64,000 bases of DNA from assembly GCA_030683995.1 (NCBI GenBank), contig JAUXPH010000015.1, forward strand, positions 186,001 to 250,000, read 5' to 3'. Position numbers and translations under genes: made by a program. A model generated the notes under the pieces. It did not search any database. It saw only the letters and a list, made by a program, of their open reading frames with translations, and was not told the DNA's origin. The stretch is from Lutibacter sp. (GTDB lineage Bacteria > Bacteroidota > Bacteroidia > Flavobacteriales > Flavobacteriaceae). This document shows positions 8,858 through 32,853 of the stretch, piece by piece (positions within the stretch are counted from its first letter, which is position 1; each line of letters opens with the position of its first letter).

Positions 8858-9303
8858 TGGAGGCAAATATGGGAAATAATTATTAAAAATCAGGCATAAA
8901 ATGTTCGATTTTTTTGGTTCTTATGATAAAAACCAAGTAAAAAATCATAAAAATGAATTCAATTGAAATTTGTTTTAACCGCAAGGAACGCAAAGAAAAA
9001 TACACAAGGAGCGCAAAGAAAATTTTGGATTTACGATTGATGATTGACGAATTTTACCTTGTCGATATTTTTAATTTTAAAACAAATCGTAAATCCGTCA
9101 TCCTGAGCGGAGCCGAAGGACGTAAATCAATTCGCGTTAGGGAGTGTAGTGAAAATCCTTTTTAATGGTTTTTACCGTTAAAAAGATTGTAACGGAAAGC
9201 CCGACCTGCCTGCCGGCAGGCGGGTAACGCCCACCAAAAAGTCGGGCAGGCCCAAAACTTCTAAATATAAATTGTTGTAGTTATTGGCCTTAAACCAATT
9301 TTT

Positions 9304-26394: not shown

Positions 26395-26763
26395 TTGTGC
26401 CTAAAAAACTTAAACGCAAATACCGCAAAGTTTTACGCGAAAGGCGCAAAATTAGAAAGAACTGCATGTAGTTTTCAGTATTCAGTCTCGGTTTTCAGTA
26501 AGAAAAAAGAAAAATGTTTGTGCCTAAAAAACTTAAATGCAAAGGCCGCAAAGTTTTACGCGAAAGGCGCAAAATTAGAAAGAACTGCATGTAGTTTTCA
26601 GTATTCAGTCTCGGTTTTCAGTAAGAAAAAAGAAAAATGTTTGTACATAAAAAACTTAAATGCAAAGGCCGCAAAATTTTACGCGAAAGGCGCAAAATTA
26701 GAAAGAACTGCAAGTAGTTTTCAGTATTCAGTAACAGTTTTAGAAAAAAGGAATGAGGAAATA
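26395..26763. repeat. 3 x 123-bp tandem repeat
   Basis: TTGTGCCTAAAAAACTTAAA... units begin at 26395, 26518, 26641 (period 123). Confidence 0.92.
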
Positions 26764-26893
26764 AAAAAGAAAGCACGGATTACAAATCCGCGCCAACTAT
26801 TTTAGATGATGTATTTGTCCTGATATCTATCGGGATTGAACTTTTAATATCTAATATTTAACTTCCGACTTCGGTCTTCAGTCTTCGGACTTT

Positions 26894-27970
26894 CTACTTT
26901 ACATTATGCTGAATATTAATCGATTCCACATGAATGGCTTTAAATATTTCTTCCACAAATTCTTTGTTAAGTCCTTTTTCTTCTGCGGCTTCGGTCATTG
27001 ATGCCAAAATATCGGCCCATCGTGCGCTTTGTAAAATTGCCACATTTTCACTGTGCTTCAACCTGCCTATTTGTTCGGAAATACCCATTCTGTCTTTCAA
27101 CAAATCAATCAAATTGCTGTCGAGCAAATCCAATTCTTTGCGGTACATATTCAGTTTTCTTTGAAACTCTTCTTTGCTGCTGCTTTTCAGACGAATTTTC
27201 AAATCCACCGTCATTTGCGCCAATTGTGCCGGCGTAATTTGTTGTTTGGCATCGCTCCAGGCATTGTCCGGGTCAATGTGTGTTTCAATCATAAATCCGT
27301 CGTAATTTAAATCGAGAGCCGTTTGGGAAACATCCAATAAGGTGTCTCTTCTTCCGCAGATATGTGAAGGATCAATAATCAACGGCAAATTAGGAAATTC
27401 CTTTTGCAGTTCAATGGCCAAATGCCATTTTGGTTTGTTGCGGTAATGCAACGAATTGTAGGTAGAAAATCCGCGGTGAATAACGCCCAACTGGGAAATT
27501 CCGGCTGCCTGAAAACGTTCTACGGCACCCAACCACAAAGGCAAATCGGGATTTACGGGATTTTTCACCAATACCGGAATGTTGACTCCTTTTAACGCGT
27601 CGGCAATTTCCTGCACCACAAAGGGATTCACGGTGGTTCTGGCGCCAATCCATAAAATATCGATCCCGTGTTTCAATGCCAATTCAACGTGATTTGCATT
27701 CCCCACTTCGGTGGTCACCAGCATTCCGGTTTCCTCTTTCACGCGTTTCAGCCAAGGCAACCCAATTTCCCCAACGCCTTCAAATCCGCCCGGACGCGTT
27801 CTTGGTTTCCAGATACCTGCACGGTACACATTGGCATCGGTATTTTTAAGCAAGTGCGCTGTTTTCATCACCTGATCTTCCGTTTCTGCGCTGCAAGGTC
27901 CTGCAATTACAATTGGATGCGATAAATTCATATCATCCAACCACTTTCTGTTTTCTTTCGTAATTTCCAT
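26894..27970 (-). CDS. bifunctional 3-deoxy-7-phosphoheptulonate synthase / chorismate mutase (type II)
   Basis: IVIAGPCSAETEDQVMKTA, ILWIGARTTVNPF; C-terminal AroQ-like YRKELDLLDSNLIDLLKDRMGISEQIGRLK. Confidence 0.92.
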   Translation of the reverse strand: MEITKENRKWLDDMNLSHPIVIAGPCSAETEDQVMKTAHLLKNTDANVYRAGIWKPRTRPGGFEGVGEIGLPWLKRVKEETGMLVTTEVGNANHVELALKHGIDILWIGARTTVNPFVVQEIADALKGVNIPVLVKNPVNPDLPLWLGAVERFQAAGISQLGVIHRGFSTYNSLHYRNKPKWHLAIELQKEFPNLPLIIDPSHICGRRDTLLDVSQTALDLNYDGFMIETHIDPDNAWSDAKQQITPAQLAQMTVDLKIRLKSSSKEEFQRKLNMYRKELDLLDSNLIDLLKDRMGISEQIGRLKHSENVAILQSARWADILASMTEAAEEKGLNKEFVEEIFKAIHVESINIQHNVK

Positions 27971-27992: not shown

Positions 27993-28841
27993 CTATTTAA
28001 TGCCGTTTAAAATTGTTTTAATATAATTTGTATTGTTCATTGTTCTGTTTAATCCGTCTTCGTCATCGTTTTTAATCATTTCTTTAAATTCACTCAGGTT
28101 TTTGATATATTCCTCCAAAGATCTTATCACATTTTCTTTATTCTGAAGAAAAATGGGCGTCCAGGTGCTTGATGCACTTTTGGCCAAACGCACGGTTGAT
28201 GCAAAACCGGTACTTGCCATATCAAAAATATACTGTTCGTTTTTTTCAATTTCCAGCACTGTTTTTCCCAACATAAATGAACTCACATGCGACAGGTGCG
28301 ACACGTAGGCGATGTGCCTGTCGTGCTCAACCGGGTTCATCATTTTGATGCGCATATTCAGTTTTTTAAACAGGCTCAAGGCCTTGTCGAGCATTTGCCA
28401 GCCGCACTTTTCCGTTTCGCAAAGAATGGCCACTTTATGATCGAACAAATCGAAAATAGCCGCTTCAGGACCCGAAAATTCTGTCCCGGCTAGCGGATGT
28501 GCCGCCACAAAATTTTTGCGGTTTGGGTGGTTTTGTATTGCCTTGCAAATTTCATTTTTTACCGAGCCTACATCAAAAACCAGTGTTTCTTCCGAAACAT
28601 TGTCCAGTACTTTCAAAGTCACCTCCGCAATTTTATTCACGGGCACCGCAATCACCACCACCGATGCATCGGACAATTGAGAAAAATCAATTGCTTCATC
28701 AATCAAACCAAGCGCCAGCGCTTTTTTAATATGTTCGGGATTCTGGTCAATTCCGTATACTTTATAACCTTCTCTTTTCTTTAAATCGAGCGCCAAAGAA
28801 CCGCCAATCAAACCCAAACCAATTACCACTAATTTTTCCAT
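27993..28841 (-). CDS. tyrA: prephenate dehydrogenase
   Basis: VVIGLGLIGGSLALDLKKREGYKVYGIDQNP; HPLAGTEFSGPEAA. Confidence 0.93.
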   Translation of the reverse strand: MEKLVVIGLGLIGGSLALDLKKREGYKVYGIDQNPEHIKKALALGLIDEAIDFSQLSDASVVVIAVPVNKIAEVTLKVLDNVSEETLVFDVGSVKNEICKAIQNHPNRKNFVAAHPLAGTEFSGPEAAIFDLFDHKVAILCETEKCGWQMLDKALSLFKKLNMRIKMMNPVEHDRHIAYVSHLSHVSSFMLGKTVLEIEKNEQYIFDMASTGFASTVRLAKSASSTWTPIFLQNKENVIRSLEEYIKNLSEFKEMIKNDDEDGLNRTMNNTNYIKTILNGIK

Positions 28842-28844
28842 TTC

Positions 28845-30002
28845 TTAAATTTCTACGGTAGATAATCTGTTCAACACTTCCTTTAACACGGTTTCTGAAA
28901 CGCACAACGAAGCGCGGATATAGCCTTCACCCTGCGAACCAAATATATTTCCCGGGGTGATAAACACATCGTTTTCATACAGTAACTTGTCGGTAAACAC
29001 TGTTGCGTCTTTGCCTTCGGGCAGTTTTGCCCACACAAACAATCCGCCGTAATTTTTATTGTAGGTACAGCCTATGGCGTCAAAAATTTCCCGCACTATT
29101 TTCTGTCTTTTTTGATAGATGTCATTTTGATTGATAAACCAGTCTTCCGATAATTTTAGGGCTTCCACTGCGCCTTTCTGAATCCCGAAAAACATTCCGG
29201 AATCCATATTGCTTTTCACTTCCAAAATTGTTTTGATCATTTCGGCATTGCCCACCACCATTCCTACGCGCCATCCGGCCATATTGAAGGTTTTGCTCAA
29301 CGAATTCAGTTCAATAGCCACTTCTTTTGCGCCTTCCGTTTCCATAATGCTGATCGGATTGTCATTCAGCACAAAAGAATACGGATTGTCGTTCACAATT
29401 AAAATATTGTGCTTTTTTCCAAAGGCAATCAGTTGTTCAAAATCTTCTTTTGAAGCCACCGCCCCGGTAGGCATATGGGGATAATTCACCCACATTATTT
29501 TCACCTTGCTTAATTCCAGCTTTTCAATTTCATCAAAATTTGGCAACCAATTTGTTTCTTGTCGCAAGGCATAAAAAACAGGTTCCGCTTCCAACAACCT
29601 GGTTACAGATTCATACGTTGGATAGCCCGGATTTGGAATCAGCACTTGATCGCCGGCATTTAAAAAAGCCATAGAAATATGCATAATTCCTTCTTTTGAT
29701 CCCATCAAAGGCAATATTTCATTGGCAGGATTTAGCGATACGTTGAAATTGGTCTTGTAAAAATACGCGATGCCTTCGCGCAATTCAGGAATTCCCTGGT
29801 AACTCTGATACTGATGCGCCGTTGGCAGTTCCATCGCATTTTTTATGGCTTCAATCACCCTGGTTGGCGGATTCAAATCGGGACTTCCGATGGCCAGGTT
29901 GATAATTGGTTTTCCTGCATTCCGCAATGAGGCCACTTCCCGCAACTTTACGGAAAAGTAGTATTCTTTAACGTTCTTTAATCTGTTTGCTTTTGGTATC
30001 AT
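28845..30002 (-). CDS. class I/II pyridoxal-phosphate aminotransferase (aromatic pathway)
   Basis: INLAIGSPDLNPPTRVIEAI, SLSKTFNMAGWRVGMVVG; inside pheA-tyrA operon. Confidence 0.9.
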   Translation of the reverse strand: MIPKANRLKNVKEYYFSVKLREVASLRNAGKPIINLAIGSPDLNPPTRVIEAIKNAMELPTAHQYQSYQGIPELREGIAYFYKTNFNVSLNPANEILPLMGSKEGIMHISMAFLNAGDQVLIPNPGYPTYESVTRLLEAEPVFYALRQETNWLPNFDEIEKLELSKVKIMWVNYPHMPTGAVASKEDFEQLIAFGKKHNILIVNDNPYSFVLNDNPISIMETEGAKEVAIELNSLSKTFNMAGWRVGMVVGNAEMIKTILEVKSNMDSGMFFGIQKGAVEALKLSEDWFINQNDIYQKRQKIVREIFDAIGCTYNKNYGGLFVWAKLPEGKDATVFTDKLLYENDVFITPGNIFGSQGEGYIRASLCVSETVLKEVLNRLSTVEI

Positions 30003-30820
30003 TAACGTTTGCTTTTATTGTATTCGCCCAACACTTTTAAGGCTTCCGTTTTTTCATTCACTTCTTTGATGGCATTGAAATAATCGGCATAGCTGTCGAA
30101 AATAAAATCGGCAAAAAATGCATATTTCCAAGGCGTTTCAATTACCGGCATCGATTGTATTTTGGAAAGGTTTAAATTGTGCTTTGCCAAAATGGTCAAT
30201 ACTTGCGCCAAACTACCTGTGTCATTGCTGGTGATAAATTTGATGGATGCCTTATTTGCCGAAACACTTTTTTTGCTTTCACCATTGGTCAGGATGAAAA
30301 ATCGGGTTGCATTGTCTTTGATGGTCTGTATTTCCGGCGCAATGATTTCCAAATTGTAAATCTCAGCCGCCAAACTGCCTGCGATTGCCGCCACACCCAT
30401 CAGTTTGTGATCCTGAATTCTTTTTGCCACCGCTGCGGTATCTTTATCTTCAATGAGTTTGATATGCGGATAATCATTAAAAAATTTATGGCATTGCAGC
30501 AAAGCCATCGGGTGTGAATACACCTCCTTGATATCGGCTATTGTTTGTCCGCCCAAGGCCATTAAATTATGGTGAATGGGCAAATAATGTTCCCCGCAAA
30601 TGGTGAGTTTATGGTCGTCTATGAGCGCATAGTTTGGCAAAATAGCGCCTGCAATGGAATTTTCAATGGCCATCACAATAACCTCTGCCTTTTTGCTGAA
30701 CAGCAAGCCCGGCATTTCGCTGAACGACATACACTCGACCAAGTCGATATTTTTTCCGAAATATTCTTCGGCCACAATGTGGTGAAATGATCCTTTAATT
30801 CCTTGTATTGCTACTTTCAT
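30002..30820 (-). CDS. pheA: prephenate dehydratase
   Basis: VAIQGIKGSFHHIVAEEYF, NDTGSLAQVLTILAKHNLNLSKIQSMP (ACT domain). Confidence 0.93.
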   Translation of the reverse strand: MKVAIQGIKGSFHHIVAEEYFGKNIDLVECMSFSEMPGLLFSKKAEVIVMAIENSIAGAILPNYALIDDHKLTICGEHYLPIHHNLMALGGQTIADIKEVYSHPMALLQCHKFFNDYPHIKLIEDKDTAAVAKRIQDHKLMGVAAIAGSLAAEIYNLEIIAPEIQTIKDNATRFFILTNGESKKSVSANKASIKFITSNDTGSLAQVLTILAKHNLNLSKIQSMPVIETPWKYAFFADFIFDSYADYFNAIKEVNEKTEALKVLGEYNKSKR

Positions 30821-30996
30821 TCGGTATTCTTATCTGTTTTTTATTGGTCCTCAGGAATGCGTATTTGTTCCTTTTGTTTTTAAATCATGTTATAGTTATA
30901 CGCATTTCATTCGGTATTCTTATTTGTTTTAATTCTGTCCTCAGGAATGCGTATTTGTTGATTTTGTTTTTATATATGTTATAAGTTGTACGCATT
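30816..30996. repeat. 2 x 90-bp tandem duplication spanning the pheA start codon
   Basis: TTCATTCGGTATTCTTATNTGTTTT... begins at 30816 and 30906; each copy contains an AATGCGTA...TACGCATT inverted repeat. Confidence 0.88.
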
Positions 30997-31011: not shown

Positions 31012-31041
31012 CAAAAAAAAAGCCTCGAAATTTTTCGAGAC
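31012..31041 (-). terminator. intrinsic terminator/attenuator upstream of pheA
   Basis: Reverse strand GGTCTCGAAAAATTTCGAGGCTTTTTTTTT. Confidence 0.78.
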
Positions 31042-31081
31042 CTTTATTATTTATTTTTGTTAAAATAACACATACGAAGCC

Positions 31082-31144
31082 TCATCTCTTATTGCTAAAA
31101 TAAAAGTAAAAATAAAAGCTGTTCCAAGTGTAATTTGTCATCAT
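31082..31144 (-). CDS. putative aromatic leader peptide MMTNYTWNSFYFYFYFSNKR*
   Basis: Codons read directly; 4 Phe, 4 Tyr, 1 Trp in 20 residues with FYFYFYF run; upstream of terminator hairpin and the pheA-tyrA operon. Confidence 0.75.
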   Translation of the reverse strand: MMTNYTWNSFYFYFYFSNKR

Positions 31145-31161
31145 CGTTGTTTATTGAAGCG

Positions 31162-31169
31162 CAAATCTA
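31162..31169 (-). promoter_or_regulatory. candidate Bacteroidota -7 box (TAGATTTG) for the pheA operon
   Basis: Reverse strand TTG-N21-TAGATTTG, matching TAnnTTTG, 17 nt before the leader-peptide ATG. Confidence 0.5.
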
Positions 31170-31479: not shown

Positions 31480-32853
31480 ATGCTTTTGAAATTTTTATTG
31501 GCTGTGATCTTATATTGTATTGGCTTCTTGCAGGCCTTTGCACAAAACATTCCACTTAGCTATTCAGTGTCGATAAATTCATCGGTTTCTAGTGAAAGCA
31601 CCCTGCCTTTTTGGATGACAGCCAATAAATTTGGCGCCGTACCAAACAGCCGTCACAGTTCTGTTTATGCTAAAGTATTTTCAGACTTTAAGGATTCTGA
31701 GAGCAAATTTTCTTTTTCCTATAAAACAAGTTTTACAGGATATTTGGCCTCAAAAAACAATTTTTTTATCAATGAACTTTATGGAAGTTTAAAGTTTAAA
31801 GGCGTACAGTTGGATTTGGGCAGTAAAAATGATGAAATAAAATGGGAGGGGCTGTCATCTTCCAACGGAGATATTATAAAATCCACTAATGCAAGGGCTT
31901 TTCCGGGCTTCAACCTAAAAACAATAGATTATTTAAAACTTCCCTTTGCCAGAAAATGGCTGCGCGTAAAAGCATCTTTTGGGGAGTATCTGTTAATTGA
32001 CAAACGTATTGTTGAACAAGTGCGCCTTCACCATAAAAATTTGTATTTTAAATCGATTTTAAGCGAAAGGTTTTCCTTGATTGCAGGAATGGATCATTAT
32101 GTACAATGGGGTGGCATTTCAGAAGAATATGGGAATTTCCCATCCGCTTTTAAAGATTATTTAAGGATTAATATAGGGTATTCAGGCGGTGAAGGAGCTT
32201 TAATAGGCGATCAAATCAATGCTTTGGGAAATACTGTGGGCGCTTATTTGTTTCAATTTAATTATACGGGCGAAAAAACAAATTGGAATGCCTATTGGTC
32301 GCATCCATTTGAAGATCGATCCGGAAGAGAATTGTCCAATTATCCAGATGCTTTATATGGCCTTTTTATCGACCTGAAAAAACCTAAAAGTTTTATTACC
32401 CACATTTTAGGAGAGTTTACTTATACCAAACATATGAGCGGAAGCACTGGAATTAGCGGACGTGACGGTTACTTCAACAATGGCGTCTATAAATCTGGCT
32501 GGACTTATTTTGGCCGTACCATTGGCGCTCCTTTTCTACACACTAAGGAACCCGTTAACGGAATTACAGAGGGAATTGATCCAAATTACAGCAGGTTTAC
32601 CGCCTATCATTTAGGGCTTAAAGGCTTTTTGCGTCCGAACATTCAGTATAAAACATATTTCAGCTATGTCCGCTACCCCGGTTGGTTTGACAATCCCATA
32701 AATAAAGAACAGTTTTCATCCCTTATTGCATTTTATCTTCAACCAAAAAACAGTCCATTTGAAATTTCGGTTGGAGGGGCCGCCGATTTTGGCAGCGCTT
32801 TGCCCAAAAATTTTGGAAGTTTTTTTCAATTGCGGTTTCCTTTAAGTGATTAG
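31480..32853 (+). CDS. capsule assembly Wzi-like outer-membrane protein
   Basis: Signal peptide, beta-barrel-like composition, FWMTANKFGAVPNSRHS; start of capsule locus. Confidence 0.75.
   Translation: MLLKFLLAVILYCIGFLQAFAQNIPLSYSVSINSSVSSESTLPFWMTANKFGAVPNSRHSSVYAKVFSDFKDSESKFSFSYKTSFTGYLASKNNFFINELYGSLKFKGVQLDLGSKNDEIKWEGLSSSNGDIIKSTNARAFPGFNLKTIDYLKLPFARKWLRVKASFGEYLLIDKRIVEQVRLHHKNLYFKSILSERFSLIAGMDHYVQWGGISEEYGNFPSAFKDYLRINIGYSGGEGALIGDQINALGNTVGAYLFQFNYTGEKTNWNAYWSHPFEDRSGRELSNYPDALYGLFIDLKKPKSFITHILGEFTYTKHMSGSTGISGRDGYFNNGVYKSGWTYFGRTIGAPFLHTKEPVNGITEGIDPNYSRFTAYHLGLKGFLRPNIQYKTYFSYVRYPGWFDNPINKEQFSSLIAFYLQPKNSPFEISVGGAADFGSALPKNFGSFFQLRFPLSD

Follow-up and report, generated by a model that had tools for sequence, protein, structure and literature searches.

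Most of what is known of leader-peptide attenuation comes from Proteobacteria and Actinobacteria, and in the ilv and thr operons of enterobacteria one leader carries codons for several operon-linked amino acids. For the aromatic amino acids, the Escherichia coli pheL-pheA system (RF01859, Phe_leader) regulates prephenate dehydratase and has an aromatic leader, a terminator and an antiterminator, as does the locus described here. The Phe-Tyr-Phe leader aroR of Corynebacterium glutamicum controls the aroF (DAHPS) operon by ribosome stalling (Neshat et al. 2014, as summarized in PMC11802643); in that summary, Phe limitation is effective and Tyr limitation is without effect. According to a 2010 survey, Proteobacteria and Actinobacteria were until then the only groups with demonstrated leader-peptide systems, to which it added Firmicutes (PMC2965389). 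A Bacteroides thetaiotaomicron transcriptome includes leader-like small ORFs in long 5' UTRs, with pheA unmentioned (PMC7366714). In Flavobacterium psychrophilum, the main text of a 2021 study describes a conserved structured 5' element before pheA that is kept in other Flavobacteriaceae genera, and its authors noted hints of leader-peptide attenuation upstream of amino-acid operons (PMC9723704).

We analyzed a 64,000-nucleotide stretch of Lutibacter sp. DNA, referred to as the window, in which a short ORF rich in Phe and Tyr codons precedes four genes of aromatic amino acid synthesis (Table 1). The first-pass annotation had called these genes a pheA-aminotransferase-tyrA-DAHPS/CM operon, and their Pfam and NCBIfam domains bear this out. 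The pheA gene is up to 99% identical to the closest Lutibacter records. Since the sole chorismate mutase domain among the four operon proteins is that of the DAHP synthase-chorismate mutase fusion (DAHPS-CM), this protein is the source of the prephenate from which both Phe and Tyr derive.

Table 1. Features of the attenuator and its operon in the window.
Feature	Positions	Strand	Basis or remark
-7 promoter element of Bacteroidota type, TAGATTTG (TAnnTTTG)	31162..31169	-	sequence and comparison; expected transcription start about 31155
Leader peptide ORF, MMTNYTWNSFYFYFYFSNKR followed by a stop	31082..31144	-	read from the sequence; alternative start 31141
Control codons TTT TAT TTT TAC TTT TAT TTT (FYFYFYF)	31097..31117	-	sequence; alignment columns almost invariant
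RNA segment 1 (ACAC 31131-31128; AGCUUU 31120-31115)	31115..31131	-	MFE fold; pairs with segment 2
RNA segment 2 (GAGGCUU 31083-31077; GUGU 31071-31068)	31068..31083	-	pairs with segment 1 or 3
RNA segment 3, terminator 5' arm (AAAGGUCUCGAA)	31034..31045	-	common to terminator and antiterminator
RNA segment 4, terminator 3' arm (31029-31018) into nine-T tract (31021-31013)	31013..31029	-	
pheA, prephenate dehydratase (PDT + ACT), without chorismate mutase	30002..30820	-	Pfam PF00800, PF01842
Class I/II aminotransferase, presumed aromatic	28845..30002	-	Pfam PF00155; operon position
tyrA, prephenate dehydrogenase	27993..28841	-	NCBIfam NF006307 above cutoff; PF02153, PF20463
DAHPS-CM, DAHP synthase-chorismate mutase fusion	26894..27970	-	PF00793 and PF01817

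Read directly on the minus strand, the leader runs ATG ATG ACA AAT TAC ACT TGG AAC AGC TTT TAT TTT TAC TTT TAT TTT AGC AAT AAG AGA TGA (31144-31082), and either of two in-frame ATGs could serve as the start. It has the four Phe, four Tyr and one Trp previously stated. The lone Tyr of the segment NYT is unique to the window genome; its relatives mostly have Asn at that position. A whole-genome search for the FYFYFYF DNA pattern returned a single match in 3.08 Mb, which is the leader itself, and none for the reversed control; the pattern is present in 34 of 38 Lutibacter genomes. In the same genome, a histidine-run pattern, sought as the mark of a possible second attenuator, gave five matches, against two in its control.

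The TAnnTTTG-like -7 element that had been placed 17 nt 5' of the first leader ATG is indeed there. The motif was found about 26 nt 5' of the leader ATG in 30/30 Lutibacter, and it occurs in 21/43 other named Flavobacteriaceae and 35/59 other Bacteroidia, compared with 138/2640 shuffles (5%). A scan for sigma-70 TTGACA/TATAAT promoters was set aside, this being the wrong promoter type for Bacteroidota.

Several repeats and an RNA element lie elsewhere in the window. Two direct 90-bp repeats, 81% alike, occupy 30815-30994 between the terminator and pheA, and each holds a long inverted repeat (AATGCGTA...TACGCATT). One or two copies occupy the equivalent place in some Lutibacter and are absent from others; diverged copies (73-77%) occur elsewhere in a few Lutibacter genomes. 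The repeat may be a small mobile hairpin element, which would lengthen the 5' UTR. Downstream of DAHPS-CM, at 26395-26772, is a tandem array of about three 123-bp units (90-96% alike) that is open in one frame as a 136-aa ORF. A Flavo-1 RNA (RF01705) at 9129-9210 scored 55.2 bits, above its gathering score.

The terminator had been described as a hairpin, CTCGAAA-aa-TTTCGAG, followed by a 9-T tract. Both the hairpin and the nine Ts are present, but the true hairpin is longer: AAAGGUCUCGAA and UUCGAGGCUUUU form 12 pairs (31045-31018; -13.2 kcal/mol, z = -4.4 versus shuffles), and a consensus scan also picked it up. The leader RNA of the window folds into a 1:2 helix plus the 3:4 terminator, at -25.9 kcal/mol (z = -3.1). 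In an alignment of 31 Lutibacter sequences, 99.7% of cells in the 3:4 helix were paired, versus at most 75% in slid controls. For the 1:2 helix the figure was 95.5%, with slid controls at 54% or lower, and this helix shows compensatory C-G to U-A changes. The alternative 2:3 helix was kept in 99.5% of cells in the same sequences and hardly varied. Because it is nearly invariant in Lutibacter, there is no covariation within the genus, and support was drawn from differences between families. Across families, 111 distinct segment 2/segment 3 pairs stay complementary (for example GAGGCUU/AAGUCUC, CGGGACU/AGUCCCG, GCCGGGACU/AGUCCCGGC and ACGAGGU/GCCUCGU), and the 2:3 region was more stable than shuffles (p ≤ 0.05) at 92% of 163 loci.

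The position of segment 2 relative to the control codons is also constrained. In 95% of the 153 distinct loci examined, versus 15% of shuffles, its first base lies 7-14 nt past the last aromatic codon; across Bacteroidia the median is 11 nt (middle half 9-12), and in the window the first base of GAGGCUU lies 13 nt past the last Phe codon. The identical measurement on E. coli K-12 pheL, used as a positive control, gave 8 nt and 9 pairs. The GAGGCUU of segment 2 overlaps the UGA stop of the leader, and its nucleotides are kept while the end and frame of the peptide vary (KR, KREA or KRNEALYV before the stop). In Lutibacter with a one-base shift, for instance, the nucleotides are kept while the peptide end changes from KR to KREA. 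The locus has a short ORF rich in codons for the operon's products, an intrinsic terminator before the first gene and an antiterminator that uses the terminator 5' arm and so excludes the terminator, with segment 2 just past the site where a stalled ribosome would sit; in the Lutibacter sequences, the 1:2 pairing takes in the control-codon region.

We scanned the DNA upstream of pheA genes for short ORFs in which at least 7 of 9 residues are aromatic, F and Y both occur, and a T run follows. Such leaders were found in 112/157 pheA upstreams, 1/3140 dinucleotide shuffles and 0/548 upstreams of other ORFs; the leader, terminator and promoter element are more than chance. The leader counts for DAHPS-CM operons given below come from a scan for ATG-started ORFs plus four GTG-started leaders; a strict T-run requirement misses some real ones. 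The leader and terminator are present at all 29 Lutibacter loci for which the upstream DNA is long enough, and the leader core NTWNSFYFYFYF is almost fixed in the genus. Absence of the leader in relatives, which had been raised as a point against the original reading, was checked for, and the leader is present across Lutibacter, Flavobacteriaceae and other Bacteroidia families. Elsewhere in Flavobacteriaceae it takes forms such as MTKQYFWNGFYFYFFF (Arenibacter), MLQNIWQGFYFYFYFF (Tenacibaculum), MHYTYFNNWFYFFF (Flaviramulus) and MSNNRFYFSNTFYFFF (Flavobacterium), and more distant families have MNNSRAYFYGFYFYFTSKSRD, MKRFNAYFWFYYYYF and MKTLNASFFYFYFYF, among others. No leader was found in a handful of sampled non-Bacteroidia genomes (L193-L200), where the dehydratase gene lies outside such an operon.

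In total we collected 163 leaders, comprising 141 distinct peptides with 730 F, 460 Y and 70 W between them. All 141 contain both Phe and Tyr, and 140 have at least two Tyr. Conservation of the alternation of the two residues in related genomes had been proposed as a check. Both codons are kept throughout the class, but strict alternation is confined to Lutibacter and near relatives, with a free mixture elsewhere. At four loci, three of them in one family (L146, L163, L172) and the fourth at L170, two consecutive Phe/Tyr leaders, each with its own hairpin and T run, stand in tandem 5' of pheA, up to 350 nt before it.

Ribosome-mediated transcription attenuation is very likely the mode of control to which this arrangement points, and the best explanation overall, which we hold to be probable, is a pheL-type attenuator relieved by scarcity of Phe-tRNA or Tyr-tRNA. 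The analogy with pheL had been drawn in the first-pass annotation, and the conserved leader, the conserved antiterminator, the geometry matching that of E. coli pheL and the operon content agree with it. Transcription would start about 12 nt 5' of the leader ATG. When Phe-tRNA or Tyr-tRNA is scarce, a ribosome would stall in the FYFYFYF run and hide segment 1, leaving the GAGGCUU of segment 2 free to pair with segment 3 (AAGGUCUC). This pairing would block the terminator, so that the PDT-AT-TyrA-DAHPS/CM operon would be transcribed. With both amino acids plentiful, the ribosome would reach the UGA and cover the overlapping segment 2; segments 3 and 4 would then pair and RNA polymerase would halt at the T run. 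Without translation, the 1:2 helix would form and termination would again be expected. We infer the stalling, the premature termination and the sufficiency of either amino acid's lack from this arrangement of sequence elements.

Two other accounts would leave the small ORF without a role. It could be a chance ORF beside the ordinary terminator of an upstream transcript, as short F/Y ORFs are somewhat likely to arise in AT-rich intergenic DNA and a T-rich hairpin could end another transcript. However, the neighboring gene at 31480 is opposite in direction, and the scan counts (112/157 versus 1/3140 and 0/548 in controls), together with class-wide conservation, refute this account, which we regard as practically dismissed. 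We also find it very hard to credit that the ORF is incidental to a U-rich non-coding 5' element, either a riboswitch or a protein-binding site. That idea would draw on the U-richness of F/Y codons and on the structured element before F. psychrophilum pheA, for which the main text reports no assigned ligand (PMC9723704). It does not fit the peptide-level constraint seen over 141 distinct peptides and in the excess over shuffles and other ORFs, or the distance between the last aromatic codon and segment 2, which is fixed despite sequence change; nor did any Rfam riboswitch match at its gathering score.

If the leader is translated, which amino acids it senses depends on which codons lie where a stall could act. 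Segment 2 begins 11 nt after the last Phe codon and 15 nt (5-95%: 8-22) after the last Tyr codon; the Trp codon is usually 38 nt away, with 12% within 24 nt. Because the last Phe and Tyr codons are in the stall window and Trp is far from it, sensing of both amino acids is likely; judged from codon content and position, a response to Tyr as well as Phe seems somewhat more probable than its absence. The reading we take most seriously among the others, although we lean against it, is a Phe-only attenuator in which effective stalls occur at Phe codons, and Tyr codons are tolerated one-step neighbors (UUU to UAU) that add U-richness or slight slowing. None of the 141 distinct peptides is Phe-only and just one has a single Tyr. 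Tyr codons persist 8-22 nt ahead of segment 2, a position from which a stall would be effective; Phe and Tyr are both supplied by the operon and DAHPS-CM; and E. coli pheL, serving a Phe-only enzyme, has no Tyr. On the other hand, the Phe-Tyr-Phe leader aroR is described as responding to Phe and not to Tyr limitation (PMC11802643), Phe outnumbers Tyr in the leaders (730 versus 460), and the final aromatic codon encodes Phe in 106 of 138 peptides. Sensing of Trp in addition, through the conserved tryptophan of NTWNS, so that all three aromatics would control DAHPS supply, appears improbable. Trp is found in 86 of the 163 leaders and in most Lutibacter, and DAHPS supplies the Trp branch too, but the codon is about 38 nt from segment 2 in most leaders (within 24 nt in 12%), is swapped for Phe or Tyr in several Lutibacter, and belongs to segment 1, the pairing of which accounts for its being conserved. 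Given this location and its distance from the stall window, the Trp codon more probably reflects a constraint on the RNA than sensing of Trp.

Nearly all sampled Bacteroidia DAHPS-CM operons carry a mixed Phe/Tyr leader. Among pheA operons with a visible downstream DAHPS-CM gene, 128 have ATG-started leaders, four have GTG-started ones (L097, L098, L105, L171), and three have no recognizable leader (L121, L185 and L220, the last in a 1.2-Mb genome). L121 has three consecutive prephenate dehydratase copies ahead of the aminotransferase, tyrA and DAHPS-CM. Where pheA has no downstream DAHPS-CM, 18/23 loci have no leader and 5/23 have one; three of these five (L106, L139, L205) lie on stretches that are cut short. 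DAHPS-CM comes first in the cluster in one family (L231-L235), where the leader and terminator are in front of it (MLITAAIYFTFFYFYFRSQSRIGAVYCLAKN). At L229 the leader MNWHKAYFFYYSPSRD precedes a separate DAHPS-CM gene, and in family f82 a leader was found neither at pheA nor at DAHPS-CM. Genome G168 (contig C6; L233 and L235) has two DAHPS-CM copies about 0.5 kb apart, at 457515-458549 and 459020-460039, with an F/Y leader upstream.

No F/Y leader was found at separate Bacteroidia aminotransferase-tyrA operons, so the leader does not follow tyrA by itself. Since the loci are related by descent, these counts are not independent, and the relocations are the stronger evidence. Judging from these genomes, the leader tracks the DAHPS-CM gene, a supplier of both amino acids, and not simply the occurrence of tyrA. 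The first-pass annotation had explained the F/Y mix as fitting an operon that makes both amino acids; the mixed codons are kept, but it is DAHPS-CM that they accompany. Sequence and comparison together establish the leader, terminator and antiterminator, their geometry and conservation, and the association with DAHPS-CM. The wider proposal, that an attenuator acting as an OR-gate for Phe or Tyr starvation is the ancestral and general aromatic control of Bacteroidia, tied to and moving with DAHPS-CM and doubled in some lineages, seems to us evenly poised.

The mixed Phe/Tyr leader appears as standing equipment of Bacteroidia, with more than 100 natural variants in which the two arms of the antiterminator have co-varied while keeping a fixed distance from the last aromatic codon. 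With this set one can test whether a single leader is able to sense two amino acids, as against the silent Tyr codons of aroR, and how stalling and folding are coupled in bacteria that usually initiate translation without a Shine-Dalgarno sequence. It also predicts how aromatic amino acid supply may be controlled in a major marine, soil and host-associated bacterial group.

The RF01859 Phe_leader model matched in the window at 27.7 bits (E = 0.03), below its gathering score of 55, and the leaders at 12 related loci gave no gathering-score Rfam match. Assignment to RF01859 was rejected on both counts. A search of open-access literature found no description of a mixed Phe/Tyr leader in Bacteroidota, of its class-wide spread or of the link to DAHPS-CM. 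The element before F. psychrophilum pheA is most likely the same as that of the window; the main text of that study gives no leader sequence, Phe/Tyr content, distribution beyond the family or link to DAHPS-CM (PMC9723704).

Compared with E. coli pheL, whose antiterminator begins 8 nt past the last Phe codon, the window has an offset of 13 nt, and its leader mixes Phe and Tyr whereas pheL is Phe-only. In E. coli, pheA and tyrA each have their own chorismate mutase, and pheA does not share an operon with tyrA or DAHPS; the window operon holds DAHPS-CM and has its chorismate mutase on that fusion. The FYFYFYF leader resembles C. glutamicum aroR, by the available description, in placing a Phe-Tyr-Phe run before a DAHPS operon, but aroR is actinobacterial and its aromatic run, as described, is shorter. 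The ilv and thr leaders combine branched-chain amino acids or threonine and isoleucine, whereas this one combines Phe and Tyr. The mechanism is thus classic; what is new, as far as we have seen, is that the mixed specificity spans a whole class and is linked to DAHPS-CM.
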